Origin: Bacillota bacterium
Lineage (GTDB): Bacteria > Bacillota > Bacilli > Bacillales > Cytobacillaceae
Length of the DNA stretch: 64,000 nt
Assembly: GCA_030705955.1 (NCBI GenBank)
Contig: JAUZPL010000010.1
Span: forward strand, 1-64,000
Direction of reading: 5' to 3'
The notes below the pieces were generated by a model, which saw nothing but the letters and a program-made list of their open reading frames with translations, did no database searches and had not been told where the DNA came from. Below, piece by piece: positions 30,707 through 56,234 of the stretch. The translations under genes were made by a program, and so were the position numbers. Each line of letters starts with the position of its first letter. Positions within the stretch are counted from its first letter, which is position 1.

Positions 30707-31011
30707 GATACATATTCCCCTTTAAATCTTGTTTTCTTTTAGTTTAAGCAAAGAGAGTAAGAACATGCCAGAAAAAAGGCTTAAGTTAGGTCAACAAAAG
30801 AAAGCATTCAAATAATAATACCATTTAAGGAAATAGTTTGCTTTATCTTTGTCTCTTTTTTTAAATGATTGTTGCTTCCGATTCGTTTCACGGATTAATT
30901 CCTGTTTTTCGTGCTTTTATTTTCACAAATAAATCTGGAAACTTACGAAAATTTTAATGGGCTCCATAAACCTTCCATAGTGACCGCGCTTGCCCTTTTT
31001 TATTGGGAAAA
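30707..31011. repeat. Intergenic gap holding a decayed phased-repeat element
   Basis: No ORF with a ribosome site. Between about 30861 and 30935 the sequence aligns to the array at 47455-47582 in the same orientation: both share GATTGTTGCTTYCGATT (30868-30884), then TTTCACGGATTA for TTTCGCGGATA, GTTTTTCGTG for GGTTTTCGCG and TTTTCACAAATAAA for TTTTCGCGGATAAA. Point mutations and small deletions have degraded the repeat. Confidence 0.55.
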
Positions 31012-31035
31012 TAAAAAACCCAGCCATTGGCCAGG
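31012..31035 (-). terminator. secG: Terminator of secG
   Basis: CCCAGCC (31019-31025) and GGCCAGG (31029-31035) pair with two wobble pairs around a 3-base loop; the minus-strand tail is six Ts. Confidence 0.6.
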
Positions 31036-31049
31036 TATTAGCAACATTA

Positions 31050-31283
31050 TTAGAATTTTAAATAAACCACAGATATCGAGAGTAAGAAGAACAACACAGA
31101 TAAAACAATGGTAATTCGATGTAAGATTAAGTCCATACCACGTGCTTTTTGTTTACCAAATAATTGTTCTGCTCCACCCGAAATGGCGCCAGATAATCCA
31201 GCACTTTTACCTGATTGAAGTAAAACAACAACGATAAGTGCAATACTTACAATAACTAATAGTGTTATAATCAATGCATGCAT
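31050..31283 (-). CDS. secG: Preprotein translocase subunit SecG
   Basis: 77 aa, two transmembrane helices (about 3-23 and 53-75) joined by the conserved cytoplasmic loop [20 protein letters not shown]. SecG supports SecYE-driven protein export. ATG 31283 (MHALIITLL) follows GGAGGTGG at eight bases and matches the B. subtilis protein end to end. First gene of the secG-est-rnr-smpB-ssrA order; a terminator at 31012 suggests est has at least partial independent expression. Confidence 0.95.
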
Positions 31284-31375
31284 GAAGGCCACCTCCAGTT
31301 AGACGATCGTTTACATTATTTTAAATTTACCATATAATTTCCCTTTTAACAATAGACGTTATTGTGACAGGTTGG

Positions 31376-32293
31376 TCATCTTAAGATAGAGGATGCCATT
31401 CTTACATATGTATGTCTTTTTCCCCTTATGACAATGGAGTAGGTCGTAATATTTTCTGGCATAGCAATGCCTGCTACCCCAGCATCCCCAATATGAAATA
31501 AATCAGCTCCTGCCATTTTACTATTTAAAGCAATTTGCCTAATGGTTTCTTCATCTGAACCTTCCTGACTAGTTCCAGTGGTTAAAATGGCCAATGCTCC
31601 TTTTTCATGAACAATATCAATGAGGTTTGCTGTTTTTTCGACTGTAAATCCAGGTACAGTTCCTGGTGATGGTATAAGAATGATATCAGCTCCTGCATCA
31701 ATGAATGCGTGCAATGTCTCTTTTGGCATTAAACGGCTGCCAGCTTCCCCTGCTACACCCGCACTATGCATTTTACCAGCGATAATTAATCCCTCTTTAC
31801 CAAAAACCTTTCTAGCTATCTGAATCGCCTTTGTAATTTCCTCATTGGATACACCTGTCTTTGGATTCCCTGTTAAACAAACGAAGTCAAATCCTAATTC
31901 CTTCGCTTTTTGAAGTGACTTTTCCGAAGCAAGCCTACCTTCTGGAAGCTGCCTTAAGGATTCTAATTGTCTTGCATTCAAATCAACAGGCTCTAAATTA
32001 AGGCCCATTGGGCGCCCTACTAATCTTTTTAATGTTTTTACAGTTGTTTCTGGATCCTCAATGGTTAATCCCTCAATTTCAGGGTGAAAAACATCAAAAT
32101 AATTTAATAATAGAAGATCTGCCCCAAATGCGGCAGCCATTTCTGCATTTGTTACCGCTGGATAAAAAGGAGTTACTGCACCAATAACCTCTGCCACAAT
32201 GGTTCTTCCTTCGGAAGCAAGAATTGATTGTTTTAATTCTTGTCCATTCATACTTTCAAAATCTGATGCTGTACAATCTAACAATCTTTTCAT
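31376..32293 (-). CDS. Putative TIM-barrel protein of unknown function
   Basis: 305 aa, cytosolic. The repeating beta/alpha pattern (IVAEVIGAVTPFYP, GADLLLLNYFDVFHPE, PMGLNLEPVD, GFDFVCLTGNPKTGV, GLIIAGKMHSAGVAGEAG, GADIILIPSPGTVPG, GALAILTTGTSQEGSD, GADLFHIGDAGVAGIAMPEN) is that of a TIM barrel, with glycine-rich turns near the C-terminal ends of strands as in phosphate-binding barrels. I do not recognise the family with certainty; some relatives carry misleading hydrolase annotations. ATG 32293 follows GAGGAGG; the longer frame starts inside that site. It is divergent from aceB-aceA. Confidence 0.7.
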   Translation of the reverse strand: MKRLLDCTASDFESMNGQELKQSILASEGRTIVAEVIGAVTPFYPAVTNAEMAAAFGADLLLLNYFDVFHPEIEGLTIEDPETTVKTLKRLVGRPMGLNLEPVDLNARQLESLRQLPEGRLASEKSLQKAKELGFDFVCLTGNPKTGVSNEEITKAIQIARKVFGKEGLIIAGKMHSAGVAGEAGSRLMPKETLHAFIDAGADIILIPSPGTVPGFTVEKTANLIDIVHEKGALAILTTGTSQEGSDEETIRQIALNSKMAGADLFHIGDAGVAGIAMPENITTYSIVIRGKRHTYVRMASSILR

Positions 32294-32419
32294 TATAGTA
32301 TTCCTCCTCAAAAACTAAATCTGGCAAGGATACAACAATACACTCCTCTAGATTACATTTTTTTTAATAAAAATGCTAGAAATGCGAAAAAAAGAAATAA
32401 AAATTTACAGAAAAAGCAG

Positions 32420-32448
32420 TTCCATTTTTAATTAATGTGTTATATAAT
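32420..32448 (+). promoter_or_regulatory. Candidate aceBA promoter
   Basis: A perfect TATAAT (32443-32448) lies 17 bp after a weak TTCCAT -35, about 50 bp upstream of the GTG start of aceB. A poor -35 is common for regulated promoters. Confidence 0.45.
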
Positions 32449-32497
32449 ACAAAATGAAATATTTATCTGTAATATAACAAGAAAGGTGATGAGACCA

Positions 32498-34090
32498 GTG
32501 TCAACAAAAACAAAGGGGATTAAGGTGGTTGGGGCCATTAAACCAGCGTATGATGAAATCTTAACCACTGAAGCACTTCATTTTATCGAACAACTAGAAG
32601 TTCTTTTCGGGGAAAGACGATTGGAACTGTTACAGTACAGAAAAAAACGCGAGAAAGAACTTAATCAAGGAAAAATGCCCGATTTTCTGCCTGAAACAAA
32701 GCATATTAGAGAGGGAGAGTGGACTATTTTTCCTTTACCTCAAGACCTTTTGGATAGAAGGGTAGAAATTACAGGGCCAACTGATCGAAAAATGGTGATT
32801 AATGCTCTGAATTCTGGTGCAAAGCTCTTTCTGGCTGACCTTGAGGATGCTAACTCCCCTACCTGGGAAAATATGATGGAAGGGCAAATAAATCTTAGAG
32901 ATGCTAACAATCGAACTATTTTTTTCAAAAATCCCGATGGGAAGCAATACAGATTAAATAAGGAAGTTGCTGTCTTGATGGTAAGGCCACGTGGACTTCA
33001 TTTAGAAGAAAAACATGTTCTGGTTGATGGAAGGCCCGTTTCTGGAAGCTTTTTTGACTTCGGCATGTACTTTTTCCATAATGTTAAAAATCTACTTACC
33101 AATGGAACAGGGCCTTATTTTTACTTACCTAAGCTAGAAAGTCATCTGGAAGCAAGGTTGTGGAACGATGTTTTTGTGTTCGCACAAAATAGGCTTGGTG
33201 TTCCACAAGGTACAATAAAAGCCACTGTTTTATTAGAGACCATAATGGCTGCTTTTGAAATGAATGAAATTTTGTTTGAATTAAAAGAGCACTCAGCCGG
33301 TCTAAACTGTGGCAGGTGGGATTACATTTTTAGTTATTTGAAAAAGTTCCGTTATCAACAGGACTTTATTCTTCCGGACCGTTCACAAGTAACAATGACT
33401 TCGCCGTTTATGCATGCATACTCACTCCTCACCATTCAAACATGTCATCGAAGAAATGCTCCTGCAATGGGTGGAATGGCCGCTCAAATTCCAATTCGAA
33501 ATAATCCTGAAGCAAATGAAGACGCCTTTGCTAAGGTTCGTGCTGACAAAGTAAGGGAAGCTCGTGATGGCCATGATGGTACATGGGTGGCCCATCCAGG
33601 TCTTGTACCAGTTGCATTAGAGGTATTCAATCGAGAGATGCCACAACCTAATCAAATTAACTCTGAAAAACAACAAAACATCACAATTACAAGAAAAGAT
33701 TTATTGGAGGTACCAGAGGGCACTATCACAGAGGATGGAGTCAGGATTAACATTAATGTTGGAATTCAATATGTGGAATCTTGGTTATCCGGAAAAGGTG
33801 CCGCACCTATCTATAATCTTATGGAGGACGCTGCAACCGCTGAAATTTCAAGGGCACAGCTTTGGCAATGGATCCGGCATCCAAAAGGCATTCTGATTGA
33901 TGGGCGCAAGGTAACTATTGATATGTATGAGCAATTAAAGTCTGAGGAACTGGAAAAAATCATACAGGAAATTGGAATCACTGCCTTTGAAAATGGCCGA
34001 TTTACAGAGGCCGTCCAGCTATTTGACCGTTTAATTTTAAACGATGACTTTGCTGACTTTTTAACGGTACCTGGGTATAAGTTTTTATAA
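32498..34090 (+). CDS. aceB: Malate synthase A
   Basis: 530 aa, the usual size of form A. It condenses glyoxylate with acetyl-CoA to malate, second enzyme of the glyoxylate shunt. Characteristic segments are LFLADLEDANSPTWENMM, RPRGLHLEEKHV, GLNCGRWDYIFSYLKKF with the catalytic Arg/Asp area, MGGMAAQIPI and HDGTWVAHPGLVPVA. GTG 32498 is chosen: AAAGGTG sits nine bases upstream and the following STKTKGIKVVG is a sensible N terminus; ATG 32489 is possible. It is 51 bp upstream of aceA and forms an operon with it. Confidence 0.95.
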   Translation: MSTKTKGIKVVGAIKPAYDEILTTEALHFIEQLEVLFGERRLELLQYRKKREKELNQGKMPDFLPETKHIREGEWTIFPLPQDLLDRRVEITGPTDRKMVINALNSGAKLFLADLEDANSPTWENMMEGQINLRDANNRTIFFKNPDGKQYRLNKEVAVLMVRPRGLHLEEKHVLVDGRPVSGSFFDFGMYFFHNVKNLLTNGTGPYFYLPKLESHLEARLWNDVFVFAQNRLGVPQGTIKATVLLETIMAAFEMNEILFELKEHSAGLNCGRWDYIFSYLKKFRYQQDFILPDRSQVTMTSPFMHAYSLLTIQTCHRRNAPAMGGMAAQIPIRNNPEANEDAFAKVRADKVREARDGHDGTWVAHPGLVPVALEVFNREMPQPNQINSEKQQNITITRKDLLEVPEGTITEDGVRININVGIQYVESWLSGKGAAPIYNLMEDAATAEISRAQLWQWIRHPKGILIDGRKVTIDMYEQLKSEELEKIIQEIGITAFENGRFTEAVQLFDRLILNDDFADFLTVPGYKFL

Positions 34091-34141
34091 TTCTGATTTT
34101 GACGGATAAACGAAATTAAATTTTTAGAGGAGGCTAGAAAA

Positions 34142-35422
34142 ATGAAAGATTCAAGAGTAAATGAATTACAGGAAAGCTGGGAAATGGACTCTCGTTGGAA
34201 GGGAATTACAAGACCCTATACTGCAGAGGATGTTATAAAACTACGAGGTTCCATGGATATTGAGTATACTTTAGCTAAAAAGGGAGCAATAAAGTTCTGG
34301 AAGCTTTTGCATGAGGAAGAGTATATTCATGCACTTGGCGCTTTAACGGGCAACCAGGCAGTTCAACAAGTAAAAGCAGGCCTTAAAGCTATTTACTTGA
34401 GCGGCTGGCAGGTTGCAGCAGATGCGAACCTTTCAGGTCATATGTATCCGGACCAAAGCTTATATCCAGCAAATAGTGTTCCTAGCGTAGTAAAGAAAAT
34501 TAACCAGGCCCTACAACGCGCAGACCAAATCCATCATACCGAAGGAGATCACTCAATTGACTGGTTTGTTCCTATTTTGGCGGATGCTGAGGCAGGATTT
34601 GGCGGGCAGCTTAACTGTTTTGAGTTAATGAAGGGCATGGTTGAGGCAGGTGCAGCTGGCGTACATTTTGAGGATCAGCTTTCTTCGGAAAAAAAATGCG
34701 GCCATTTAGGCGGAAAAGTACTACTTCCTACACAAACAGCGGTTCGAAACCTTATTGCAGCACGTTTAGCAGCTGATGTCATGGGTGTTCCAACCGTGCT
34801 AGTAGCTCGTACTGATGCCAATGCTGCAGACCTTATTACAAGCGATATTGATATGAATGATGCGCCGTTTATCACTGGTGAACGGACAGCAGAGGGATTT
34901 TTCCAGACAACTGCAGGAATTGACCAAGCAATTGCCCGAGGCTTATCCTACGCTCCATACGCAGATGTTGTTTGGTGCGAGACTGCTGAGCCAAACCTTG
35001 AGGAAGCAAGAAGGTTTGCTGAAGCTATCCATGAAAAATTTCCAGAAAAATGTTTGGCCTACAATTGCTCACCATCATTTAATTGGAAGAAGAAGCTTAA
35101 CGAAGAAACGATTGCGAATTTCCAAAAAGAGCTTGGGAAAATGGGCTACAAATTCCAGTTTGTCACACTTGCCGGTTTCCACGCATTGAACCATAGTATG
35201 TTTGAACTTGCGAGAGGGTATAAAGAGCGTGGCATGGCGGCCTACTCTGAATTACAGCAAGCAGAATTTGATAGCGAACAATATGGTTACACCGCAACAC
35301 GCCATCAACGTGAGGTCGGTACTGGATATTTTGATAAAGTTTCGATGGTTATTTCAGGAGGAACCTCTTCTACTACAGCATTGAAGGGGTCTACTGAAGA
35401 AGCGCAGTTTGTTGGGAAATAA
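34142..35422 (+). CDS. aceA: Isocitrate lyase
   Basis: 426 aa. Splits isocitrate into succinate and glyoxylate, bypassing the decarboxylations of the TCA cycle during growth on acetate or fatty acids. The active-site loop KKCGHLGGK (catalytic Cys) is present, with metal-binding [18 protein letters not shown] and [18 protein letters not shown] precedes ATG 34142. The pair with aceB gives a complete shunt, a feature lacking in B. subtilis but present in several other Bacillaceae. The downstream region holds a phased repeat array before the terminator. Confidence 0.96.
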
Positions 35423-35444
35423 TAATCGGCTGTTTTTCTAATTA

Positions 35445-35538
35445 TATCCGCGAAAAATTGCTACTTATCCGCGAAAATTCTATTTTATCCGCGATAATTT
35501 CGATTTATCCGCGAAAATCATGTATTTATCCGCGAAAC
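35445..35538 (+). repeat. Five-copy phased repeat array 1 (TTATCCGCGAAAAT type)
   Basis: Five units with TATCCGCG starting at 35445, 35466, 35486, 35506 and 35527: steps of 21, 20, 20 and 21 bp. Units 2 and 4 are identical (TTATCCGCGAAAAT), unit 3 has GATAAT, unit 5 ends CGCGAAAC. Spacers are AT-rich and not conserved. The array lies between the aceA stop and the shared aceA/eno terminator. A GGCTGTTTTTCT lead-in at about 35428 resembles that of array 2. Confidence 0.85.
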
Positions 35539-35540
35539 GG

Positions 35541-35570
35541 AAAAAAGGGTGACCCGAGGGCCACCCTTTT
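35541..35570. terminator. Bidirectional terminator between aceA and eno
   Basis: AAAAGGGTG (35543-35551) pairs with CACCCTTTT (35562-35570), with an inner CCC/GGG. Poly-A and poly-T flanks serve both convergent units. Confidence 0.85.
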
Positions 35571-35575
35571 CATGT

Positions 35576-36886
<1,311 letters not shown>

Positions 36887-36900
36887 TTAAAATAGGGGTA

Positions 36901-39217
<2,317 letters not shown>

Positions 39218-39231
39218 TCATTGCATATGGA

Positions 39232-40416
39232 TTATTTATCGTTTAAGGCCACAACGCCAGGCAATACCTTTCCTTCCATAAATTCTAAGGATGCTCCGCC
39301 TCCTGTTGAAATATGGCTCATTTTATCAGCTAAATGAAACTTTTCTACAGCTGCTGCAGAATCACCACCGCCAATAACAGAATATGTACCCTTAGATTCT
39401 GCAAGTGCTTCCGCTACTGCTTTTGTTCCACCAGCAAATTTATCAATTTCAAACACACCCATTGGTCCATTCCAGATAACCAATTTAGACTTTTGGATCA
39501 CGTCACGATAAAGTTCTGCGGTCTTTGGCCCAATATCAAGTGCTTCCCAATCAGCAGGAATTTCATTGATCGGTACTACCTTTGAATTAGCATCTGCAGA
39601 AAAATCATCTGCCACAATCGCATCCACAGGTATATAGAAGTTAACACCTTTTTGCTTTGCTTTTTCAATAAAAGAATTAGCAAGGTCAATTTTATCTGCT
39701 TCTAAAAGAGATTTACCGATTTCGTGACCTTGTGCTTTTACGAAAGTATAAGCTAAGCCACCACCAATAATGAGATTATCAACCTTTTCTAAGAGGTTTT
39801 CAATCACACCAATCTTATCCTTAACCTTGGCTCCACCAATAATGGCAGTAAAAGGACGGTCTGGATTAGAAAGGGCCTTTCCTAATACTTCAAGCTCTTT
39901 TTCCATTAAAAATCCGGAAACTGCTGGAAGATGGTGTGCAATTCCTTCAGTAGATGCATGGGCACGGTGTGCAGCACCAAAAGCATCGTTTACATACACA
40001 TCAGCAAGCTCAGCAAAGGCACTAGCTAATTTTGCATCGTTTTTCTCTTCACCAGGATAAAAACGAACATTTTCAAGAAGGAGCACATCTCCATCATTCA
40101 TTTTGGCAATTTGTGTTTTTACAGTATCGCCAAATGCTTCATCAGCCTTTTGAACGTCTTTTCCTAAAATTTCTCCTAGTCGTTTCGCTACTGGTGTTAA
40201 GCGCATTTCTTCTACTACTTTACCCTTTGGACGACCAAGATGGCTAGCAAGAATGACTTTTGCATGGTTGTCAATTAGGTATTGAATGGTTGGAATTGCT
40301 GCACGAATCCGTGTTTCATCCGTGATTTTTCCATCTTGCATTGGAACGTTAAAATCAACTCGGCAGAATACGCGTTTTCCATTTACATCAATGTCTTTTA
40401 AGGTTTTCTTATTCAA
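39232..40416 (-). CDS. pgk: Phosphoglycerate kinase
   Basis: 394 aa, two-domain kinase making ATP from 1,3-bisphosphoglycerate. N-terminal [44 protein letters not shown] and the C-terminal nucleotide site GGGLAYTF and GGGDSAAAV are canonical. Start is TTG 40416 after GGAGGG, an unusual start codon for a highly expressed gene. A terminator-like hairpin lies upstream, between gap and pgk (40444-40472). Confidence 0.97.
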
Positions 40417-40443
40417 GATAAGGACCCTCCTATTTTAAAATAG

Positions 40444-40472
40444 AAAAAGGAGAGGGGAATCCTCCCCGCTCC
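40444..40472 (-). terminator. Internal terminator/attenuator between gap and pgk
   Basis: GGAGAGGGGA (40449-40458) pairs with TCCCCGCTCC (40463-40472) around a 4-base loop with one mismatch, followed on the minus strand by five Ts. Partial termination here would make gap mRNA more abundant than the downstream genes, as known for the B. subtilis operon. Confidence 0.65.
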
Positions 40473-40552
40473 CCTTAAAAAGCTTCATACTTTTTCATTA
40501 TAGACGTTTATTGTTTGAATATCCAATATCGTCTAAATGATGATTTTTAGGA

Positions 40553-41593
<1,041 letters not shown>

Positions 41594-41659
41594 TTATTTT
41601 AGAAAAACTACGCCCTTTGAATTTATAAAAAAATATAAATCCTAGGTAGCAAAAAGGGA

Positions 41660-42682
41660 TTACCCTTTTAATAACATTTTTGCTGCCCCTTCATCTGTAA
41701 TTAAGATGGTAGATGAGGGTGCTTTCTTCAAATATGCCCGGATTGCTTTTGCTTTTGATGAACCGCCTGCAACAGCCATAATATTTGGAATGCTTGAAAG
41801 GTCATTAAGCTGGAGACCAATTGTTAACACTTTATGGACAATCTCGCCTGCTTCGTTGAAATAGTAGCCGAAAGCTTCTCCAACGGCCATTCCTCTTTCA
41901 ATTTTCTTCATATCTTCTGCGTTCGTTTTTCTCCGTTCAGCCATTGTAATGGCGTCCCCTATTCCATGTATGACCATGTTTGCTGATTGAATTAATCCCA
42001 ATACCTCATGAATAGCAGGCTCCTTAACGAGAGTCTCATAACTATCCATACTGACCTGGTCAAGAACATAGAATACCCGATGCTTTGCATTCGAATTTCT
42101 TGCCATAATGGAACAAATGGTATTAGCTTGGTTTTGTACGTCCTCACCAATTCCGCCGCGCGCTGGTACAAAAAGCAGTTCATTCTCACTCAATTCAGGC
42201 GTTAATTGTTCTGCTACAGCAGCCATCGTTGAACCACCAGTTACAGCGATGATATTTTTCCCATCAAGAAGTTTTTTCATGCAGGAGGCACTTGCTTTGC
42301 CTAATTCCCTTTTTACCATGACAGAAATGTCACTATCGCCAGGAACTATGATGGCTCTTCGTATGCCGAGGCGATGTTTCAATTCCAATTCCAGAACATC
42401 AATACCTTTAAGCTCCCGCATTAAACCTTCAAGGTCCTCTAGTAAGTTTTTCCCTTCAGACGACAAGCTCATCCCAATATTGTTAATAGTAATGAGATTT
42501 TGGTCCTTTAGAAAATCCACCTCACTTCGAAGGGTCCTCTCGGTTAAGCCCAAACTAACTGCTAGGCTTCTTCTCCCCACAGGCTGCATAAAGCCTATGT
42601 ATCGTAAAATGGAATATCTTTTTTGCATAACTTGAAGGAGATCGGGTAACAATTTCCTTTGGATATCGATGAATGCGTGCAT
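41660..42682 (-). CDS. cggR: Central glycolytic genes regulator CggR
   Basis: 340 aa SorC/DeoR-type repressor. N-terminal winged HTH with RRSLAVSLGLTERTLRSEVDFLKDQ, then the sugar-phosphate-binding domain with AVTGGSTMAAVAEQL, FVPARGGIGED, HGIGDAI and AGGSSKAKAIRAYLKK. In B. subtilis fructose-1,6-bisphosphate relieves its binding to the operator upstream of cggR-gapA. AGGAGC precedes ATG 42682. The matching operator is seen at 42709-42746. Confidence 0.96.
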   Translation of the reverse strand: MHAFIDIQRKLLPDLLQVMQKRYSILRYIGFMQPVGRRSLAVSLGLTERTLRSEVDFLKDQNLITINNIGMSLSSEGKNLLEDLEGLMRELKGIDVLELELKHRLGIRRAIIVPGDSDISVMVKRELGKASASCMKKLLDGKNIIAVTGGSTMAAVAEQLTPELSENELLFVPARGGIGEDVQNQANTICSIMARNSNAKHRVFYVLDQVSMDSYETLVKEPAIHEVLGLIQSANMVIHGIGDAITMAERRKTNAEDMKKIERGMAVGEAFGYYFNEAGEIVHKVLTIGLQLNDLSSIPNIMAVAGGSSKAKAIRAYLKKAPSSTILITDEGAAKMLLKG

Positions 42683-42708
42683 GATAAAGCTCCTTTTTAT
42701 TTATGGTT

Positions 42709-42746
42709 GGTCATATAATGTCCCGTATAGACATATTATGTCCCAC
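42709..42746 (-). promoter_or_regulatory. CggR operator, two direct repeats
   Basis: Plus-strand GGTCATATAATGTCCCG (42709-42725) and GACATATTATGTCCCAC (42730-42746) are direct repeats whose GTCCC cores are 20 bp apart. On the minus strand each reads GGGACAT-ATATG-C, like the CGGGAC/TGTC repeats bound by CggR in B. subtilis. They lie 27-64 bp before the cggR start. Confidence 0.8.
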
Positions 42747-42758
42747 CATAGCCAAAAA

Positions 42759-42799
42759 AAATTCACCCCTGTTACAACGTTCATTTTAACAGGAGTGAA
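42759..42799 (-). terminator. Terminator after rpoN-glutaredoxin
   Basis: TTCACCCCTGTTA (42762-42774) pairs with TAACAGGAGTGAA (42787-42799) with one wobble, followed on the minus strand by a run of Ts. It nearly abuts the CggR operator, leaving little room for the cggR promoter, whose -35 may lie inside the hairpin. Confidence 0.75.
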
Positions 42800-42812
42800 A
42801 CTCAATTTCAAC

Positions 42813-43070
42813 TCAAAAAGCTTGATTTTTTTGTCGCAAACGTTTACATACCTCAAATTGATCAATATACCCAAACCCAACCTCGTTCCCATCTACTAAT
42901 ACAACTGGAATCATTAGTCCATAGCGCTCTGTTAAGTCATCACTTTGGTCAATATCAATTTCTTCTAAAATAAAATCCCAGTTTCTTTTGAGTTCTAAGA
43001 TCGTTTCTTTAGCGGTTTCACAAAGATGGCAATGTGCTCGTGTATATAAAGTGATGATTGTTTGATCCAT
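42813..43070 (-). CDS. Glutaredoxin-family thioredoxin-like protein
   Basis: 85 aa, glutaredoxin fold with redox motif CHLC at about residues 14-17, the cis-Pro segment MIPVVLVDGNEV and a C-terminal helix. Such small proteins belong to the DUF836/NrdH-like group; the partner is unknown. GAGGAG precedes ATG 43070. It begins 14 bp after rpoN and ends just before the cggR regulatory region, so it is probably co-transcribed with rpoN. Confidence 0.8.
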   Translation of the reverse strand: MDQTIITLYTRAHCHLCETAKETILELKRNWDFILEEIDIDQSDDLTERYGLMIPVVLVDGNEVGFGYIDQFEVCKRLRQKNQAF

Positions 43071-43084
43071 AGTGCGACTCCTCT

Positions 43085-44383
43085 TTAATCAAACCTTTTC
43101 CGTTTAGAGGATGATGGTAGTCCAAGCTGGTCACGATACTTAGCAATCGTTCGTCTTGAAACCAAAATTCCTTCATTATTTTTCAAATAATCAACGATTT
43201 CTTGATCGGAATAGGGCTTTATTTTATTTTCTTTTTCAATTAATAATGATAGTACACTTTTTACCTGCGAAGATGAAGTACTTTCTTCTGATACAGTCTG
43301 AATATTACTTGTAAAAAAGAATTTAAGCGGAAAGGTCCCCAATGGTGTCTGAACAAATTTTTCCCTAACTGCTCTGCTAATTGTTGACTCATGCACACTA
43401 AGTTCCGAAGAAATTTCCTTCATGGTCATCGGTTTTAAGTATTCCGGGCCTTTTCTAAAAAAGTCCGTCTGTTTTTCCACTATTTTATATATTACTTTCA
43501 TCAGAGTTTCTTTTCTTTGTTCAATACTTTTTAAAACAAATTGAAAATCCTGATATTTTTCATGTAAAAATCGACTAACCTGTGCGTCATCATTGTTGGA
43601 AAATTGATGGTAGTAATGTTCGTTTAATCCTATTTTGGGAAGGAGATAGTCATTTAAACGAACGATGAAGCCTTCTGAACCCCACTCTATAACAGCATCA
43701 GGGGCTACGTAGGATGTAGGCCCATCAGAAAAATTGGCACAGGGCTTTGGATTCAAGTGTTGAAGCTGGTCAAAAACATCCTGTATTTCTTTCATTGTGA
43801 CCTGCAATTCGTTTGAAATCATTTTCCACTTCTTCTCGGCAAAAGGAAGAAAGTATTCTGCAAGAATGGTTTGAGCAAGCTTATTCTCTGGTTCCATTCT
43901 TTGTAACTGTAAAAGTAGGCATTCCTGAAGTCCTCTTGCACCAATTCCAACAGGCTCCATCTTCTGAATAATCTGTAAACCTTCTTCTATTAAATCAACA
44001 GATACTCTATGGTTGTCTGCCATTTCTTGTGTATTACCACGAAAGTAACCGTTTTCATCTAAACATTGAATAAGATGCCGGATTATTTTTAACTGCTGTT
44101 TTGTATATTTTTTTAAATTCAATTGAGCAAGCAAATAGTCCTCTAACGAGAAGGTTTTATCTGCTATTTGTTCAATCCAATATGTTTTGTCTTTATCAGG
44201 CTTTTTGGGTACACGGATGGCTTTATTTTCTACAGTAAATAGGGGATTTTCCAAAGCCTTATTTTCCAAAAACTCCGTTAGCTCTTGGGCAGAATATTGC
44301 AAAAGGGCAATTGCCTGTGTAAGCTCCTGCGTCATTGCTAATTTTAAGGTTTGCTGCTGCCATAAACCTGCCTTTAAATTCAT
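43085..44383 (-). CDS. rpoN: RNA polymerase sigma-54 factor
   Basis: 432 aa (SigL in B. subtilis). Region I is glutamine-rich (WQQQTLKLAMTQELTQAI), the core-binding middle follows, an HTH near 325-350 (MKEISSELSVHESTISRAV) contacts the -12 element, and the C-terminal RpoN box VSRRTIAKYRDQLGLP reads the -24 element. ATG 44383 follows AGGGGGG. No enhancer-binding activator is encoded in this window, and no -24/-12 promoter was found upstream of the mannose-family PTS operon here, unlike the levanase case in B. subtilis. Confidence 0.95.
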   Translation of the reverse strand: MNLKAGLWQQQTLKLAMTQELTQAIALLQYSAQELTEFLENKALENPLFTVENKAIRVPKKPDKDKTYWIEQIADKTFSLEDYLLAQLNLKKYTKQQLKIIRHLIQCLDENGYFRGNTQEMADNHRVSVDLIEEGLQIIQKMEPVGIGARGLQECLLLQLQRMEPENKLAQTILAEYFLPFAEKKWKMISNELQVTMKEIQDVFDQLQHLNPKPCANFSDGPTSYVAPDAVIEWGSEGFIVRLNDYLLPKIGLNEHYYHQFSNNDDAQVSRFLHEKYQDFQFVLKSIEQRKETLMKVIYKIVEKQTDFFRKGPEYLKPMTMKEISSELSVHESTISRAVREKFVQTPLGTFPLKFFFTSNIQTVSEESTSSSQVKSVLSLLIEKENKIKPYSDQEIVDYLKNNEGILVSRRTIAKYRDQLGLPSSSKRKRFD

Positions 44384-44454
44384 TTTCAATCCCCCCTATC
44401 TTCTATTTTACAATACAAACAGGGCTTTGGTGAATGGAAAGAAAATGGTAATCT

Positions 44455-44492
44455 AAAAAAATAGTCCCTTTGGTTGATACTTACAAAGGGAC
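44455..44492 (-). terminator. Terminator of the class A PBP gene
   Basis: GTCCCTTTG (44464-44472) and CAAAGGGAC (44484-44492) form a 9-bp stem; the minus-strand tail is ATTTTTTT. Confidence 0.85.
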
Positions 44493-44502
44493 CCAATTCT
44501 TC

Positions 44503-46644
44503 TTATCCATGCTTATGTTTTCCTTTTCCTTTCCCTGGTTTAAATTTTCCCCAACCAGGTCCATGTCCCTCTCCTTTTGGCACGTGCTTCTGTTGTTCTC
44601 CACTATTTCCAATATTGTATATTGGAGCTTGCGGAAAATCTTCAGGATTTCCATCTAAAATGTAAAGTTCATTATTCACTCTGAATACATCATTAGGCTG
44701 TATAAAGTTACTTTGATCTGTTCCAAACTCCTGCATCATGGATTTAAATAGTAGCTGGGAGACTTTTGTCGTATATCCAAGCATATAGTTACCTGGTCCA
44801 TTTTTCGCATATCCAGTCCAAACTGCCATTGTATATTGCGGTGTATATCCCGCAATCCAACTATCGTTTGTTGCGCTTGATGGATAACCAAATCGGGCAG
44901 TTGTTTTATCATCGAAATTGGTGGTACCAGTTTTTCCGGCAATATCTAGCCCCGGGACATTTGCTGCCGTTCCAGTTCCGGAGTTTACGACTGTCCGTAG
45001 CATATCCGTCACCATATATGCTGTGTAATCATGCATAACACGCCTTGGCTTTGGAGAAAACGAAACAACTTCGCCATCAGGAAAGACAACCTTCTGAACG
45101 AAATGTGGTTGATTGTAGACTCCATTATTTCCAAAAGCGCTGTAGGCTCCCGCCATCTCCAATGGATTAACCGTGTTACTTCCAATCGCTGTGGATTCGT
45201 ATACTTTATTATGATCAAAGGATATCCCCAAATTCTCAGCAAATTCCTTTGCCTTCCCCATTCCTACCTCTCTAAGTGTTAGGAGAGCAGGTATATTGTA
45301 TGACCACTGAAGTGCTGTTCGAATGGACAGCATTCCATGATATTGATGATCCCAGTTTGAAATGGATTCTCCATTCGAATACGAGGTTTCATGGTCATCA
45401 ATTTGGTGGGCTGTAGACCATTTTAAATTTTCAATAGCCGGACCATAATCAAAGATGGGTTTAAAAGAGGATCCTGGCTGCCGTTTTATATCGATTGCAA
45501 AATTGGTTCCCAGAAATGATGCCTTATACTCGTTCCGGCCACTCCCAATAGCACGAACCTCTCCTGTTTTGGTATCTAAAAATACAAAGGCTCCTTGAAA
45601 ATTAGCATTTGGATAAGGAATCATCGTATTCGTGTTCATCAGTTTATCTGCATAATCCTGAGCTTTTGTATCCAGGGTCGTATAAATCGATAATCCATCC
45701 GTACTGATGTCCACATTTTTCAGCTTGCCTTGTACTTCTTTCACAACTGCATCTAAAAACGCCTCATACGGCATACCTTGCTGATTGGACTTTGGTGCCA
45801 GCCCTTCTGTAATAGGGACTCTCTTTGCGTCAATCATTTGCTCCTCTGTAATGTATCCTTGTTTATACATTGAATGTAAGACAAGGTTACGGCGATTAGT
45901 GGCGGCTTTCTGGTTCTCGGGCTTGGTTGGATCATAATGACTAGGACTTTGCGGAAGTCCAGCCAGCATAGCAGCCTCTGAAAGGGTTAATTTATTTAGA
46001 TTGTTAGCACCAATTCCATAATAGGTTTTTGCAGCTGCTGCCACCCCATAAGAACCATCACCAAGATAAATCTTATTTAAATACATCATTAAGATTTCAT
46101 GCTTGGTATACTTTTTTTCCAGCTGATAGGCCAAACTCCATTCCTGTACTTTTCGCTTTATCGTCTTTTGAGGAGTCAGAAATGAGTTTTTAATGACCTG
46201 CTGGGTAATCGTACTACCACCTTGCGAGCCAAAATTCCCGGTTAAATTTTCAAAAATGGCTCTTGCTGTTCCTTTTATATCAATTCCATGATGTTCATAA
46301 AAGTGGGCATCCTCTGTAGCAATAAAGGCATGTTCCAACATTTTTGGTACTTGTGTATACGTAATCTTTGTCCGTTTCTCTTTGCCATATTCATAGAGAA
46401 AATTCCCGTTTTCATCGTAAAATTTAGTTGAAAGTGGATCTACTAGTTTAGAAGGGTCTAATGTTGGTGCACTTTTAATCATTGCAGCGAAGGTTACAAC
46501 CCCTATGCCTATTGAAAGAACAGCAAGAACCATACAGGTCATGAATATCTTTTTTAACAAGGATCTGCTTTTTGATGATTTATTACTTCTAAGTTGTTTT
46601 TTCGCTTGTTTTCGCTCTTGGCGATAGCGATATTCTTCAGCCAT
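44503..46644 (-). CDS. Class A penicillin-binding protein (PonA-like)
   Basis: 713 aa bifunctional peptidoglycan synthase. A basic cytoplasmic N terminus precedes a single TM helix near residues 34-56. The GT51 glycosyltransferase has the catalytic TEDAHFYEHHGID and GGSTITQQVIKN; the transpeptidase has SSFK (in QPGSSFKP), SYN and KTGTTN. Sequence is closest to PonA (PBP1) but lacks its long C-terminal extension; instead it ends in a short Gly/Lys/His/Pro-rich tail. ATG 46644 follows GGAGGCGGGG; the frame is open 62 codons further upstream with no ribosome site. It is probably a second class A PBP. Confidence 0.92.
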   Translation of the reverse strand: MAEEYRYRQERKQAKKQLRSNKSSKSRSLLKKIFMTCMVLAVLSIGIGVVTFAAMIKSAPTLDPSKLVDPLSTKFYDENGNFLYEYGKEKRTKITYTQVPKMLEHAFIATEDAHFYEHHGIDIKGTARAIFENLTGNFGSQGGSTITQQVIKNSFLTPQKTIKRKVQEWSLAYQLEKKYTKHEILMMYLNKIYLGDGSYGVAAAAKTYYGIGANNLNKLTLSEAAMLAGLPQSPSHYDPTKPENQKAATNRRNLVLHSMYKQGYITEEQMIDAKRVPITEGLAPKSNQQGMPYEAFLDAVVKEVQGKLKNVDISTDGLSIYTTLDTKAQDYADKLMNTNTMIPYPNANFQGAFVFLDTKTGEVRAIGSGRNEYKASFLGTNFAIDIKRQPGSSFKPIFDYGPAIENLKWSTAHQIDDHETSYSNGESISNWDHQYHGMLSIRTALQWSYNIPALLTLREVGMGKAKEFAENLGISFDHNKVYESTAIGSNTVNPLEMAGAYSAFGNNGVYNQPHFVQKVVFPDGEVVSFSPKPRRVMHDYTAYMVTDMLRTVVNSGTGTAANVPGLDIAGKTGTTNFDDKTTARFGYPSSATNDSWIAGYTPQYTMAVWTGYAKNGPGNYMLGYTTKVSQLLFKSMMQEFGTDQSNFIQPNDVFRVNNELYILDGNPEDFPQAPIYNIGNSGEQQKHVPKGEGHGPGWGKFKPGKGKGKHKHG

Positions 46645-46815
46645 CCTATCCCCGCCTCCTATCCATAAGGTGTTTTCTTCATTGATTACAATAGGAAGTG
46701 TATCAATTAATTTTAAAAAACTTATAGAATAATCTTCGTAATTCCATATTCCATTCATATTCATTCGAAGATTCTTTTCTTTTTTTGAGGGTAAGGGTTC
46801 ATTTAAAATACTAAA

Positions 46816-46841
46816 CCTCCCGCCAAACAAATGGCAGGAGG
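46816..46841 (-). terminator. Terminator of the STM3941-like gene
   Basis: CCTCCCGCCA (46816-46825) pairs with TGGCAGGAGG (46832-46841) with one wobble; the minus-strand tail TTTAGTATTTT is moderately T-rich. Confidence 0.6.
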
Positions 46842-46847
46842 CTCCCT

Positions 46848-47423
46848 TTACGCTTTAATTCCTTTCTTTTTCCTTCTTTTTAAGAAAGGATCTTCGTATT
46901 CCTTTACTATAATTCCTTGATTATTTTTCTGTCCGAAATCTTTACAAGTATTAAAAATTTGCCTTAGTTTCTCACTTTGAAATGCAAATCCATCAATCGA
47001 AATGGTATGACCTGTACGTTCACGATTCCTTTGTGCCATTTTAAACGCGTTCATACTGCCACTATTTTTAAAATCGTAAATTTTTGAAACTAAAATTCCA
47101 ATTTGCAGACTCGTACTTCCAGGATATGTTTCAATTTTTTCAATTGCACTCCATGGAATAAGTCCAAAATCAACAGGGGAAGTGTAATCTTTGATTCCTT
47201 TATCAGATATGACAAGTAAAGGGTCATGTTTGACTATAGCCCGAATACTCATTACAATCTGCCAGACAAAAAATAACATTATGGCAATCAATAATACTTT
47301 CCAAATAAGTTGAAAATTATTTGTAAATAATATATAAGCCTCTAAAATTAAAAAAATGAAATACACAATAATAGAGAGAGAGGATCTAATTTTATCAGGA
47401 TAGACAACATACTCGTTTGACAA
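46848..47423 (-). CDS. STM3941-family membrane protein
   Basis: 191 aa. Two transmembrane helices at about 15-33 and 40-60, then a soluble PH-like domain (LLVISDKGIKDY, LIPWSAIEKIETYPG) and a very basic C terminus. This matches the two-TM plus beta-domain pattern of STM3941-type proteins, whose role is not established. Start is TTG 47423; AAGG lies at acceptable spacing. The region immediately upstream is the second phased repeat array. Confidence 0.65.
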   Translation of the reverse strand: MSNEYVVYPDKIRSSLSIIVYFIFLILEAYILFTNNFQLIWKVLLIAIMLFFVWQIVMSIRAIVKHDPLLVISDKGIKDYTSPVDFGLIPWSAIEKIETYPGSTSLQIGILVSKIYDFKNSGSMNAFKMAQRNRERTGHTISIDGFAFQSEKLRQIFNTCKDFGQKNNQGIIVKEYEDPFLKRRKKKGIKA

Positions 47424-47486
47424 AACCTATGCCTTCTTTCATTTAGGCTCTTTTCTAAAAGATTGTTGCTTTCGATTAAGTTATTG

Positions 47487-47582
47487 TTTCGCGGATATAT
47501 TACTGGTTTTCGCGGATATCCTTTAATTTTCGCGGATAAAATTTTATTTTCGCGGATAAATTGTATTTTTTCGCGGATAAAT
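47487..47582 (-). repeat. Five-copy phased repeat array 2, inverted relative to array 1
   Basis: CGCGGATA cores start at 47490, 47511, 47531, 47551 and 47572: steps of 21, 20, 20 and 21, the same pattern as array 1 at 35445. Read on the minus strand the units are TTATCCGCGAAAA followed by AT-rich spacers, and the last unit ends CGCGAAAC, again as in array 1. The flank 47461-47477 (GATTGTTGCTTTCGATT) recurs at 30868. It lies in the 260-bp gap 47424-47683 between kdgA and the STM3941-like gene; the rest of that gap shows no gene. Confidence 0.85.
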
Positions 47583-47683
47583 CTGAAATTGGCTGGAATA
47601 ATGCCAAAAAAAACAACAAAATGTACGAAAACAGCCTTTATTTAAATTCACAAATCTAAGCCCGATACGTGACTCTTTTCCTT

Positions 47684-48328
47684 TTAACCATGCATACCTT
47701 CTTTTACAATAGATACAAACTGTTTAGCTGTTCTTGTGACTAACTCATAATCACCCATTTTTGCCCCTTTTGTTAAACTGCTTCCAGTACCGAGTGCAAA
47801 TGCCCCATTCTTCAACCATTCTGCAGCGTTTTCAGTCGTTACCCCACCGCTTGGCATAAAATGGCCTTGTGGCAGTGGCCCTTTCAAATCCTTTATAATG
47901 TTAGGTCCAAATGCGCCTCCAGGAAAAATCTTGATTACATCCGCTCCTAATTCCATTGCTTTAACAGCTTCAGTTGGGCTCATTACTCCCGGAATAACAA
48001 CGACTCTGTATCGGTTGCATACTTGAATCGTTTTTTCCGAAAGGTTTGGTGAGACAATAAACTTCGCCCTAGCAAGAATAGCCAAGCGGGCAGTTTCAGC
48101 ATCAAGTACTGTACCAGCACCAACTACAACATCCTTATCCATGTAACAGTTAGATAATTCTTTAATAATATCCAAAGCCCCCGGTACCGTCATGGTTACT
48201 TCCAGAAACTTAATGCCTCCTTTAAAAATTGCTTCACTTACCTTTAGACCTTGATCCCTATTATCCGCCCGGATGACAGCAACAAGTCCCTCTTCCCGCA
48301 TCTTTACCAGTACATCCAGCTTATCCAT
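47684..48328 (-). CDS. kdgA: KDPG/KHG aldolase (2-dehydro-3-deoxy-phosphogluconate aldolase)
   Basis: 214 aa class I aldolase cleaving 2-keto-3-deoxy-6-phosphogluconate to pyruvate and glyceraldehyde-3-phosphate. Catalytic Glu in KFLEVTMTVP, phosphate-binding GAGTVLD, Schiff-base Lys in VIKIFPGG and PSGGVTTENA. GAAGGTG precedes ATG 48328. It is the last gene of a six-gene unit with a mannose-family PTS and a 2-hydroxyacid dehydrogenase, which identifies the end products of the pathway. No dehydratase or KDG kinase gene is adjacent. Confidence 0.9.
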   Translation of the reverse strand: MDKLDVLVKMREEGLVAVIRADNRDQGLKVSEAIFKGGIKFLEVTMTVPGALDIIKELSNCYMDKDVVVGAGTVLDAETARLAILARAKFIVSPNLSEKTIQVCNRYRVVVIPGVMSPTEAVKAMELGADVIKIFPGGAFGPNIIKDLKGPLPQGHFMPSGGVTTENAAEWLKNGAFALGTGSSLTKGAKMGDYELVTRTAKQFVSIVKEGMHG

Positions 48329-48364
48329 TTCTGGTCACCTTCGTTTTAGACAATGTTCTTGATT

Positions 48365-49357
48365 CTATTTAATAAATACCTCACGATTCACCACATGATC
48401 TGGTTTTTCCCCTCTTACTATTCGTTCCACATCTGACACCACTTTTTCCCCCATCCCTCTTAGGCATTCTTCTGTATAGGCTGAAATATGGGGTGTTACA
48501 AGTACATTTTCATAGTTAAAATAAGGATGACTCTCATCAATTGGTTCACCCTCGAGAACATCTGTAAAAACTCCGGCAATGACCCCTTGATTCAAGCCGT
48601 TCAGCACTGCCTCTTGGTCCAACAATTCCCCTCTGGCTGCATTTGCGATATAAACGCCTTTTTTCATGAGACCAATTTCTCTATTTGATATCATATGATA
48701 GCTTTCTTTATTAAGTAGGGCATGCATGGAAATAATGTCTGACTGTTTTAGCAATTCATCGAGTGTAGCAGACTCTACCCCCATTTTCGCTAATTCTTCT
48801 TTATCTTTAAAAGGATCATAAGCTAGTACTCTAGCATTAAAACCATTTTTAAAAATTTCCCCAACACGGCTGCCTATATTCCCATAACCAATGACTCCAA
48901 CCGTCTTTCCCGTAATCTGATGACCAATAAATTGTGCCCGTTTTGACCATTTTCCTTCTTTTGCAGCAAGGGATGCTTCAACTGTTTTACGAATCACTGC
49001 CATTAACCCCGCTATTGCATTTTCCGCTACAGCATTTCTTTCAACATGAGCAGAAACAATCGAGACAACTGTGCCTCTTTCTGTCGCAGCATGGATATCA
49101 ATGTTGTTGTAGCCTATTCCATGCCGTGAAATCAAAATAGTTTCATCCTTAAATTCAAAAAATTCTCTTGTGAAAAATGGGGTAACGCTTGAAATAAGAA
49201 TATCAAATCCATTCAGCTTCTCTGCTAATTCCTTTCCAGGTGTCTCAATTGGAAAAGTAAAGCGTTCCACTACCCCAAGTTTCTCAAGTCTTTCCATTTG
49301 CTCTGGAAATTTCCTGCCAAAACTACTCGAATTGATGATTGCAATCTTATGTGCCAT
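48365..49357 (-). CDS. D-isomer-specific 2-hydroxyacid dehydrogenase
   Basis: 330 aa NAD(P)-dependent dehydrogenase. Rossmann motif VGVIGYGNIGSRVGEIF, catalytic Arg in NAARGELLD, Glu in DVLEGEP and catalytic His in TPHISAYTEE; the Asp in LAYDPFKDKEE at the end of beta-2 favours NAD over NADP. ATG 49357 follows GGAAGAGG; the frame opens six codons earlier within the ribosome site. Set between PTS IIB and KDPG aldolase genes, it probably interconverts a 2-hydroxy and 2-keto sugar acid 6-phosphate in the same pathway. The exact substrate is unknown. Confidence 0.88.
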   Translation of the reverse strand: MAHKIAIINSSSFGRKFPEQMERLEKLGVVERFTFPIETPGKELAEKLNGFDILISSVTPFFTREFFEFKDETILISRHGIGYNNIDIHAATERGTVVSIVSAHVERNAVAENAIAGLMAVIRKTVEASLAAKEGKWSKRAQFIGHQITGKTVGVIGYGNIGSRVGEIFKNGFNARVLAYDPFKDKEELAKMGVESATLDELLKQSDIISMHALLNKESYHMISNREIGLMKKGVYIANAARGELLDQEAVLNGLNQGVIAGVFTDVLEGEPIDESHPYFNYENVLVTPHISAYTEECLRGMGEKVVSDVERIVRGEKPDHVVNREVFIK

Positions 49358-49447
49358 AGTCCTCTTCCTTTCCATACAAATCTGAAAAGTGAATGGCTTA
49401 CAAACAGCTTTTTAGTTGACTGAACGCAATACCATTTCATCATAATT

Positions 49448-49942
49448 CTATTTAAGAGATTTAAGGGCATCCGTTAACGACACACGTTTACTGTCAGGGA
49501 CTGTCTGGAAGTATACCTCAATTCCTTTACTTTCTATTTCTTTTAAAACTTCCCCATCTTCTTTTGTTAAACCCACCGTACTGATGACAAACTTTGAGTT
49601 TGCTTTCTTAGAGATTCCTCCAATATTCAGTTTTTCAATAGGCAGGTTCCCTTTTTCAATGACTTCCTTTACACTAGCAATATTTTTAAATAGTAAAACA
49701 ACCTGATCATTCCCAAATTGATCTTGAGCCCAACTTTCCATTACCTCTTTCGTACTAAATACTTTAATTTTCAAGCCCGAAGAGGAGTTCACATTAATAT
49801 AGATTTCCTTCATAAAATCATCTGCAGCTGTAAGGTTGTCAACCACATAAATGGCATTCGTTCCAAGCCCCTTTGACCACTTTGTCATAACTTGTCCGTG
49901 TATTAATCGATCATCAATTCTTATTAAGTTAATTTTCCCCAT
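49448..49942 (-). CDS. PTS mannose/fructose/sorbose family IIB
   Basis: 164 aa cytosolic phosphotransfer protein. The phospho-acceptor His lies in the canonical RIDDRLIHGQVMTKW near residue 15; the rest is the IIB-Man fold. It receives phosphate from IIA (gene at 49959, 16 bp away) and passes it to the incoming sugar at IIC/IID. AGGGGTGG precedes the start. Confidence 0.93.
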   Translation of the reverse strand: MGKINLIRIDDRLIHGQVMTKWSKGLGTNAIYVVDNLTAADDFMKEIYINVNSSSGLKIKVFSTKEVMESWAQDQFGNDQVVLLFKNIASVKEVIEKGNLPIEKLNIGGISKKANSKFVISTVGLTKEDGEVLKEIESKGIEVYFQTVPDSKRVSLTDALKSLK

Positions 49943-49958
49943 GAAAATCCACCCCTTT

Positions 49959-50375
49959 CTATTTTTTAAGAAAAAAGCTTCGATCTAATTTTTTGATTCC
50001 ATCCATACCTGTCTGTTTAATTGTTTCTAATAATGTATTGGTATCTTCATCATTTTTATAGAAAGCCAATAATTCAATTAACATTGGCATATTTACTCCA
50101 GTCAGAATCTTCAAATCATTTTTAGCCAATAATGAGAGGGCAACATTTCCAGGACTTCCCCCCATTAAGTCAACCATGACAACCGTTTCTAACCCTTTTT
50201 CATTATTTTTTTCCACAATTAAAGCGGCTTTGTTTCGAAGATTATCCACAGAATCACCAGGACGTAAGGCTAAGGCACAGACATTTTCCTGCGGTCCCAT
50301 GATCATTTCTACGCTTTTTATTAATTCACTGCCAAACTCACCATGAGTCATAATTACTATTGCTCTATCTGCCAC
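49959..50375 (-). CDS. PTS mannose family IIA
   Basis: 138 aa. The active-site His is in VIMTHGEFGSEL near residue 11, and VDLMGGSPGNVAL is typical of the fold. Here IIA and IIB are separate genes, as in several sugar-acid and fructose systems, not fused as in E. coli ManX. Start is GTG 50375 after GAAGAAGGG. A stable stem-loop (50400-50440) lies in the 78-bp gap to the IID gene. Confidence 0.92.
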   Translation of the reverse strand: MADRAIVIMTHGEFGSELIKSVEMIMGPQENVCALALRPGDSVDNLRNKAALIVEKNNEKGLETVVMVDLMGGSPGNVALSLLAKNDLKILTGVNMPMLIELLAFYKNDEDTNTLLETIKQTGMDGIKKLDRSFFLKK

Positions 50376-55978: not shown

Positions 55979-56234
55979 AATTTTCTTTATTTACAAACGC
56001 GGATAGAGCGGAAATAGCATCTTCTTCATCAGATCCATCCGCAATAATATTTATTTCTGTTCCAGAGCTTACAGCTAAACTCATCAACCCCATGATGCTT
56101 TTAGCATTAACCTTTTTACCACCTTTTTCAAGGAAAATATCTGAAGAAAACCGATTTGCCTCTTGGACAAAAAGTGCTGCTGGGCGAGCTTGAAGTCCCG
56201 TTTTTAATAATACTTTTACTTGTTTTTCAACCAT
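55977..56234 (-). CDS. crh: HPr-like catabolite repression protein Crh
   Basis: 85 aa HPr homologue. The position of the PTS phosphohistidine is Gln (LQARPAAL, residue 15), so it cannot pass phosphate, while the regulatory Ser-46 site NAKSIMGLMSL is intact. This pair of features defines Crh rather than HPr. Crh-Ser-P is a CcpA co-repressor, and unphosphorylated Crh acts on methylglyoxal synthase in B. subtilis. It ends the nudix-rapZ-glmR-whiA-crh operon. Confidence 0.95.
   Translation of the reverse strand: MVEKQVKVLLKTGLQARPAALFVQEANRFSSDIFLEKGGKKVNAKSIMGLMSLAVSSGTEINIIADGSDEEDAISALSAFVNKEN

Follow-up and report, generated by a model that had tools for sequence, protein, structure and literature searches.

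Two arrays of a short repeat lie on opposite strands of the window (the whole stretch of 64,000 nucleotides analysed here), and both have the same uneven sequence of steps between their units. The question is what such arrays are, how they came to their sites and what keeps them there. A sequence-only reading of the window had taken them for an element selected for its geometry, with a possible role at the 3′ end of kdgA transcripts.

Two arrays of the same geometry

Array 2 has five exact CGCGGATA cores on the + strand (47490, 47511, 47531, 47551, and 47572) and array 1 has five on the - strand (35445, 35466, 35486, 35506, and 35527), each set with steps of 21-20-20-21 bp; the common spacing and opposite strands claimed previously are confirmed by these exact positions. 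The window contains 11 exact CGCGGATA octamers, ten of them inside the arrays; 100 dinucleotide shuffles averaged 0.42, with a maximum of 3. An isolated copy is present at 55998-56005 (+). A de novo scan of the whole window for phased 7-mers found arrays 1 and 2 and no third. The cores are 8-9 bp in length, with 11-13 bp between them.

The reported terminal variant CGCGAAAC is real in both arrays, where, in the sense orientation, G-TTT replaces TTTT before the first unit, which is CGCGAAAC on the other strand. The sequence GGCTGTTTT occurs only twice in the 64 kb, at 35428 (+) and 47628 (-), and an array adjoins both, but the shared lead-in that had been proposed is only partly borne out. At array 2 this sequence forms one of the two inverted ends of an insertion; the other, GGCTCTTTTC at 47446, is not listed in the sequence-only reading. 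At array 1 it is 6 bp away and no second inverted end was seen. The GGCTGTTTTTC stretch beside array 1 could possibly be a remnant of the terminal repeat of the array 2 element. Array 1 is outside any recognised MITE, directly behind the eno terminator. An element with defined ends and polarity, as described in the sequence-only reading, is supported.

Table 1. Features of the window associated with the two arrays.
Feature	Position	Strand	Basis or remark
Array 1	35445..35534	-	five CGCGGATA cores, steps 21-20-20-21; immediately follows the eno terminator hairpin, which was identified by eye
Array 2	47490..47579	+	five CGCGGATA cores, steps 21-20-20-21; exact-match count and de novo scan
GGCTGTTTTTC	35428..35438	+	6 bp from array 1
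Enolase ORF upstream of array 1	35576..36874	-	named by eye
kdgA-like aldolase ORF, 214 aa	47684..48328	-	name from the sequence-only reading and by eye
191-aa ORF on the other side of array 2	46848..47423	-	ORF
MITE-like element, 191 bp, carrier of array 2	47446..47636	+	inverted ends; other genomic copies; related copies in another genome of the genus (G001)
Left terminal inverted repeat GGCTCTTTTCTAAAAGATTGTTG	47446..47468	+	23-bp inverted ends
Right terminal inverted repeat GGCTGTTTTCGTACATTTTGTTG	47614..47636	-	23-bp inverted ends
Left target duplication TTCATTTA	47438..47445	.	7/8 match to right copy
Right target duplication TTTATTTA	47637..47644	.	7/8 match to left copy
Degenerate relative of the array 2 element, no intact core	30857..30933	+	70% identity over part of the element

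A MITE-like element carries array 2

Array 2 came in as the passenger of a MITE-like insertion. The inverted ends are GGCTCTTTTC..TTGTTG at 47446 and, on the other strand, GGCTGTTTTC..TTGTTG ending at 47636. The 8-bp target duplication matches at 7/8 positions in the window and at 8/8 in two other copies (L034 and L036) and in all seven of the measured, shorter relatives in G001, the one other genome of the genus; it is weaker in L039 (5/8) and L043 (0/8). Several copies exist and the carrier has no long ORF. It is like MITEs with 8-bp target duplications in being short and multi-copy with inverted ends, and presumably it resembles the ISL3-like MITEs. An ISL3 transposon as the source of the ends was considered and rejected: the PF01610 (ISL3) search of the window's genome found a single locus (L087), which does not have the MITE ends.

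The copies on contigs C196 and C168 have five units and an 8/8 target duplication each. By eye, other copies retain units 1-2-5, 2-5, or 5 only, the number of units thus ranging from 1 to 5; such partial sets are as expected for recombination between units. Further related copies, several of these with degenerate cores, are on C168, C57, C159, C150, and C158, among others. The spacers had been described as unrelated in sequence, which is the case between arrays 1 and 2, but those of array 2 match the C196 and C171 copies unit by unit (by eye). Of the copies in the window's genome, several bear CGC[TC]GATA-like cores; those on C196 and in the window have CGCGGATA throughout their five units, with similar spacers, as if the core code of the MITE copies had been switched in concert.

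In G001 there is a family of such elements (L330, L336, L338, L340-L343), 153-162 bp long, which have GGCTCTTTTC at their ends and are flanked by AT-rich 8-bp target duplications without a mismatch. The seven measured short members carry no array; at another locus in this genome (L331), the left MITE end is followed by CGC[TC]GATA units.

Occurrence in other genomes

There are seven exact-pattern CGCGGATA sites in the window's genome, two on C2, the contig of the window, and one each on C124, C150, C171, C196, and C207. Among 201 genomes, strict three-unit TCGCGGATA arrays are present in 13 and CGCNGATA arrays in 41, the reversed-pattern control having matches in one. A scan of named genomes gave at least 113 stretches, and 107 of the matches listed are from Bacillales, as judged by record title. 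It had been suggested that sister genomes without any such pattern at the orthologous loci, and with random unit numbers, would argue for neutral simple repeats. Overall the pattern is not missing, as G001 has 49 CGCNGATA matches, but there is no such core behind eno in that genome; at the kdgA site the matches to G001 fall outside the array region, and no empty site is definable. The number of units does vary among the MITE copies.

Most of the listed arrays outside Bacillus fonticola have 3-6 units, while the 21 loci fetched from B. fonticola CS13 have 12-46 units each. In this strain (L097-L196), each of the 22 fetched arrays runs counter to the local GC skew, on the - strand below the chromosome midpoint and on the + strand above it. 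Orientation is not strict elsewhere (52 arrays with the skew and 33 against, in ten groups; 1:6 in the window's own genome), and a general rule of replication-oriented arrays was therefore rejected, this being strict in B. fonticola only.

Some individual arrays differ in make-up or setting. At G108:C18:389011-389178, CGCGGATA and CGCAGATA units alternate, giving a 40-bp higher-order repeat. An IMG/VR viral contig (L201, 3842-4112) has TTCGTACATCGCGGATA-type repeats, and the ORF scan listed no NERD gene on it. Three arrays, in Bacteroidales, Streptomyces, and Spirochaetaceae records, sit inside large ORFs.

A NERD protein as candidate partner

When the 478 proteins flanking 147 distinct arrays were clustered, the largest group was a NERD protein, filling 14 flank slots at 10 loci, one of them second-nearest; a simple ORF picker provided the gene calls here and for the placement and skew counts. 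Eight of eight aligned representatives matched PF08378 (NERD) in a Pfam scan. Residues G45, E46, D79, and K94 are invariant in all eight, and a C-terminal CxxC..CxxC ribbon and winged helix are common to them. Structure models (pLDDT 86.7 and 91.6) have a nuclease-like domain and a winged helix. The N-terminal fold resembles PD-(D/E)xK enzymes (Cdn1/Can2, McrC, and Holliday junction resolvases) with modest scores (Z up to 8.9) and the best structural match of the C-terminal part is weak (Z 6.6). Foldseek with the models gave no match at 1e-3 (best E 3.9e-3), general folds only being assigned, and a sequence search of solved structures found no credible NERD relative. The partner appears to be nuclease-like, with catalysis predicted.

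Matches to the NERD family at 1e-10 are found in 174 of the 201 genomes, with up to 12 per genome. In the window's genome, the NERD gene with the matching core is on another contig than the window's, at G000:C207:8895-9857, and the CGCGGATA array upstream of it has steps equal to those of the window arrays. A paralogue at G000:C33:5536-6482 (L242 and L243) is split in two frames, with GG[CT][TC]GATA-like units upstream; by eye, it adjoins a polysaccharide-deacetylase-like gene, and another NERD gene (L241) has a similar neighbour. Two distant paralogues, L244 (G000:C154) and L245 (G000:C109), have nearby repeats with a period of 52 bp, not 20/21 bp. A search of phage and plasmid records with one NERD query (the L188 protein) gave no match at 1e-5.

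Ten of the 17 listed neighbours of NERD genes, from eight loci, were annotated. These are mostly metabolic or repair genes, and include one RCC1-repeat protein and one YtxK/N6-methylase-like protein; a defence-island context was rejected on this basis. Likewise, PglW-like matches in PADLOC (5/8, best 3e-5) and a match to the MAD6 kinase in NCBIfam (7/8, best 9e-8) were set aside as weak and as expected from the shared NERD domain. In a Robertmurraya metagenome-assembled genome (L160), the order is an enolase gene (confirmed by Pfam), a terminator-like hairpin, an array, and then a NERD gene. As a suggestion only, array 1 behind eno may mark a former NERD site.

Association of NERD genes with arrays in differing codes

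A phased array, defined as three or more copies of a 7-mer in which two or more steps measure 19-22 or 39-43 bp, was found within 400 bp of 66 of 73 NERD loci and 11 of 338 control ORFs. The NERD loci were taken by profile and include both halves of the split gene, both negative; the controls came from array-bearing contigs with CGCNGATA masked. At the 73 loci, 47 arrays are upstream and 37 downstream, with 18 loci having both, while controls have four upstream and seven downstream. The association holds in 60 of 67 loci when the six that had suggested the link are left out, and in 78 of 88 when further loci are added, the other ten having no array under this definition. With no period imposed, the steps in 86 NERD-flank segments are 20 bp (144), 21 bp (201), or 40-42 bp (48), with 16 others.

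The cores differ between NERD paralogues and include TTCGCGGATA, TTCGCAAA, TTCGCGAATA, TTCGCTGATA, AATTCCGGAA, TTTACCGGCCA, TGCAAATAGA, and GGCTCATA, as well as others; some, such as AATTCCGGAA, are palindromic. Arrays upstream and downstream of one NERD gene have similar cores (median similarity 0.90, n=12, compared with 0.38, n=3309). Among 70 NERD proteins with arrays of at least four units, core similarity correlates modestly with identity across the ribbon and winged helix (r 0.257 and partial 0.249 in Mantel tests, 0/500 permutations); the N-terminal part (nuclease domain plus linker) adds no correlation of its own (r 0.083, 27/500; partial -0.05). In single-column tests, the two columns most associated with the core (175 and 166) precede the ribbon, outside the C-terminal part; five columns of the third helix and wing (294, 297, 298, 311, and 317) are among the next six. 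Mean column scores differ little (N-terminal 1.28, ribbon 2.24, winged helix 1.64). The best reading is that the core code would be read by the C-terminal part of the NERD protein.

A core beside a NERD gene also tends to be dispersed in the same genome. For three cores in 49 genomes, the same core is dispersed in 10 of 12 genomes with it beside a NERD gene and in 10 of 135 without (table [[10,2],[10,125]]; Fisher 1e-8, with kinship ignored; by core 0.002, 0.013, and 0.0002), as judged from the fetched NERD loci, which are not every paralogue. Two genomes of one genus, G140 and G183, have CGCTGATA and CGCGGATA, respectively, as their NERD-side cores; strict matches to CGCTGATA number 18 in G140 and none in G183, and those to CGCGGATA number two and 21. 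Orphan arrays are found in G064, with 17 strict matches and two NERD genes at 1e-30 that have other cores, and in G001, where the arrays are CGC[TC]GATA and the one NERD gene at 1e-30 has ACGGATA. The pairing of protein and code recurs, with different codes, across many relatives of Bacillus.

Placement and core conservation

Of 91 distinct dispersed arrays, five are between divergent genes, where 18% are expected by length, and 26 are between convergent genes, where 16% are expected (p 2e-4). Between co-directional genes the orientation is 31:29. This count left out seven non-Bacillales or viral loci and arrays less than 500 bp from a NERD gene. None of 120 arrays checked is inside an ORF of at least 1200 bp; array-overlapping ORFs shorter than this were discarded, so that short coding ORFs are not excluded.

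Pooling 12 orthologous pairs of arrays gives differences at 4/504 core, 126/533 spacer, and 369/928 flank sites. This omits two of the 14 pairs found, with more than 30 gaps each, one of which (L180/L102) has 7/39 core mismatches; with all 14 pairs the values are 11/579, 147/617, and 426/1044. The loci were found through three consecutive exact cores, so that some three cores in each array owe their conservation to the ascertainment, and when 27 sites per pair are discounted by hand the core divergence is about 4/180 (pooled) or 11/201 (all). The pairs are not independent, three sharing loci, and one (L175/L141) is adjacent to NERD. Step patterns are identical in eight of the 14. Selection on the cores, as judged from these alignments, is supported, and for the core the earlier argument for selection holds.

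Proposed function and alternatives

The arrays are probably cognate multi-site binding platforms of NERD proteins, a reading that draws on comparison of the family, the geometry, the co-occurrence, the divergence of the codes, and the conservation of the cores. From this we infer physical binding and the stacking of protomers: each 8-9 bp core would be read by the C-terminal part of one NERD protomer, and with a step of 20-21 bp, equal to two turns of the helix, about five protomers would stack on one face of the DNA. The window arrays would be dispersed platforms for the NERD protein encoded at C207:8895-9857, array 2 having been carried in by the MITE-like insertion.

Binding could result in tethering, titration, directed cutting, or chromosome organisation. 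We tentatively suggest that a potentially harmful nuclease is tethered or titrated by the dispersed arrays, and that its gene is autoregulated through the arrays next to it, which would explain why cores are retained while position and orientation relative to genes hardly matter; the gene-side arrays and the extreme expansion in one species also favour this. In our view it fits best, with array-directed cutting and spread as the main rival. A more doubtful proposal is a NERD nuclease with a DNA-encoded antidote, in which arrays in a private 8-9 bp code, next to the NERD gene and scattered, would hold the nuclease harmless, and the codes of paralogous systems in one genome would be orthogonal to each other. 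If arrays were lost, or if a phage destroyed the chromosome, the nuclease would be set free; arrays would then be addictive, which would explain the preservation of cores wherever they lie.

In the main rival, the NERD protein of a selfish mobile system cuts or nicks at arrays, copying arrays and its own gene to new sites in the style of RAYT/REPIN, and the dispersed arrays are non-autonomous or solo copies. The many dispersed intergenic copies, their depletion between divergent genes and absence from the longer ORFs, the arrays on both sides of 18 of 88 NERD loci, the conserved nuclease-type residues of the eight aligned proteins, the NERD neighbours that differ between species (with 10 of 17 annotated), and the enolase gene followed by array and NERD gene in L160 but by an array alone in the window all suit such a system. 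The strong conservation of cores at orthologous sites is unlike that of dead copies, though, and the single clear movement, that of array 2, was via MITE ends; selfish spread is possible, but we would not expect it. Dispersed, intergenic arrays with conserved cores could also be parS- or Noc-like loading sites for chromosome folding or segregation, and the uniform orientation of the 22 B. fonticola arrays, at 21 loci, would agree with this. It is unlikely, given the lax orientation elsewhere, and given the several NERD paralogues with different cores per genome and the lack of arrays of a given core in most relatives, which are unlike a housekeeping segregation system.

That the arrays are neutral tandem repeats or MITE cargo, similar through the spread of one satellite and of no function, is already disfavoured and highly improbable: array 2 is inside a MITE-like element and unit numbers range from 1-5 among its copies up to 46 in B. 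fonticola, but cores diverge far less than spacers, arrays are associated with NERD genes of different codes, and the 20/21 step is sharp despite variable spacers. The least credible of all is an RNA element downstream of kdgA, be it a terminator, an attenuator, or a processing signal. Several arrays start right after terminator-like T-runs (by eye), and the earlier statement that no conventional terminator is seen near array 2 is correct, as 47300-47800 has no terminator-like site (GC-rich hairpin plus T run). However, this is also evidence against the array serving as one, four RNA folds show no significant gain over shuffles (z -1.39 to +0.36), there is no Rfam match in window positions 30000-50000, orientation to transcription is even, and array 2 was brought in by an insertion; a role at the 3′ end of kdgA transcripts is therefore not upheld.

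Comparison with known systems

If the arrays are binding platforms of NERD proteins, the large and mostly uncharacterised NERD family is linked to a DNA code that can be read from the genome, which gives a ready set of predicted natural pairs of protein and DNA specificity and would account for a class of phased repeats dispersed in Bacillales genomes. Were a nuclease indeed restrained or directed by arrays, genome defence or selfish maintenance would be working on a new principle. The NERD domain (PF08378) was described by Grynberg and Godzik (2004), as cited in PMC12567373 and PMC12458937; in the accessible parts of these two papers and of PMC12802215, no arrays or paralogue-specific codes are tied to NERD. 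No link between NERD proteins and repeat arrays emerged from a search of the open-access literature on NERD, with or without repeats (subscription papers being mostly outside this scope), nor did anything relevant on the core sequence or a description of these dispersed phased Bacillales repeats.

CRISPR arrays have long conserved repeats and spacers of about 30 bp. The present arrays are unlike them in having 8-9 bp cores with 11-13 bp in between. Plasmid iterons are direct repeats spaced by about 20-22 bp along the same face of the DNA, and the winged-helix protein that binds them also controls its own gene. Phased direct repeats at 20-22 bp are common to both, but the arrays are chromosomal and dispersed, with much of each unit free to drift, and no replication initiator is among the ten annotated neighbours of NERD-side arrays, the neighbours of other arrays having been clustered only.

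In REPIN/RAYT systems, the REPs have palindromic sequences, and the RAYTs are enzymes resembling tyrosine (HUH) transposases. There, as here, short repeats are dispersed in intergenic regions, and each type is paired with a repeat-flanked partner gene for a DNA-processing-like protein. Here, however, the cores are mostly non-palindromic, 8-9 bp in length, and set in phased direct arrays (CGCGGATA is not a palindrome, and its folds are not above shuffles), and the partner is a PD-(D/E)xK NERD protein that has a zinc ribbon and a winged helix: NERD is found in 8/8 representatives, and no Y1 transposase is among 25 of 28 Pfam families shown. As far as the accessible parts of the papers on REPIN/RAYT (TnpA-REP) go (PMC3116915, PMC8266576, PMC3686654, PMC8049555), this is the closest concept, from which the arrays and their NERD partners differ in the type of repeat and in the enzyme.
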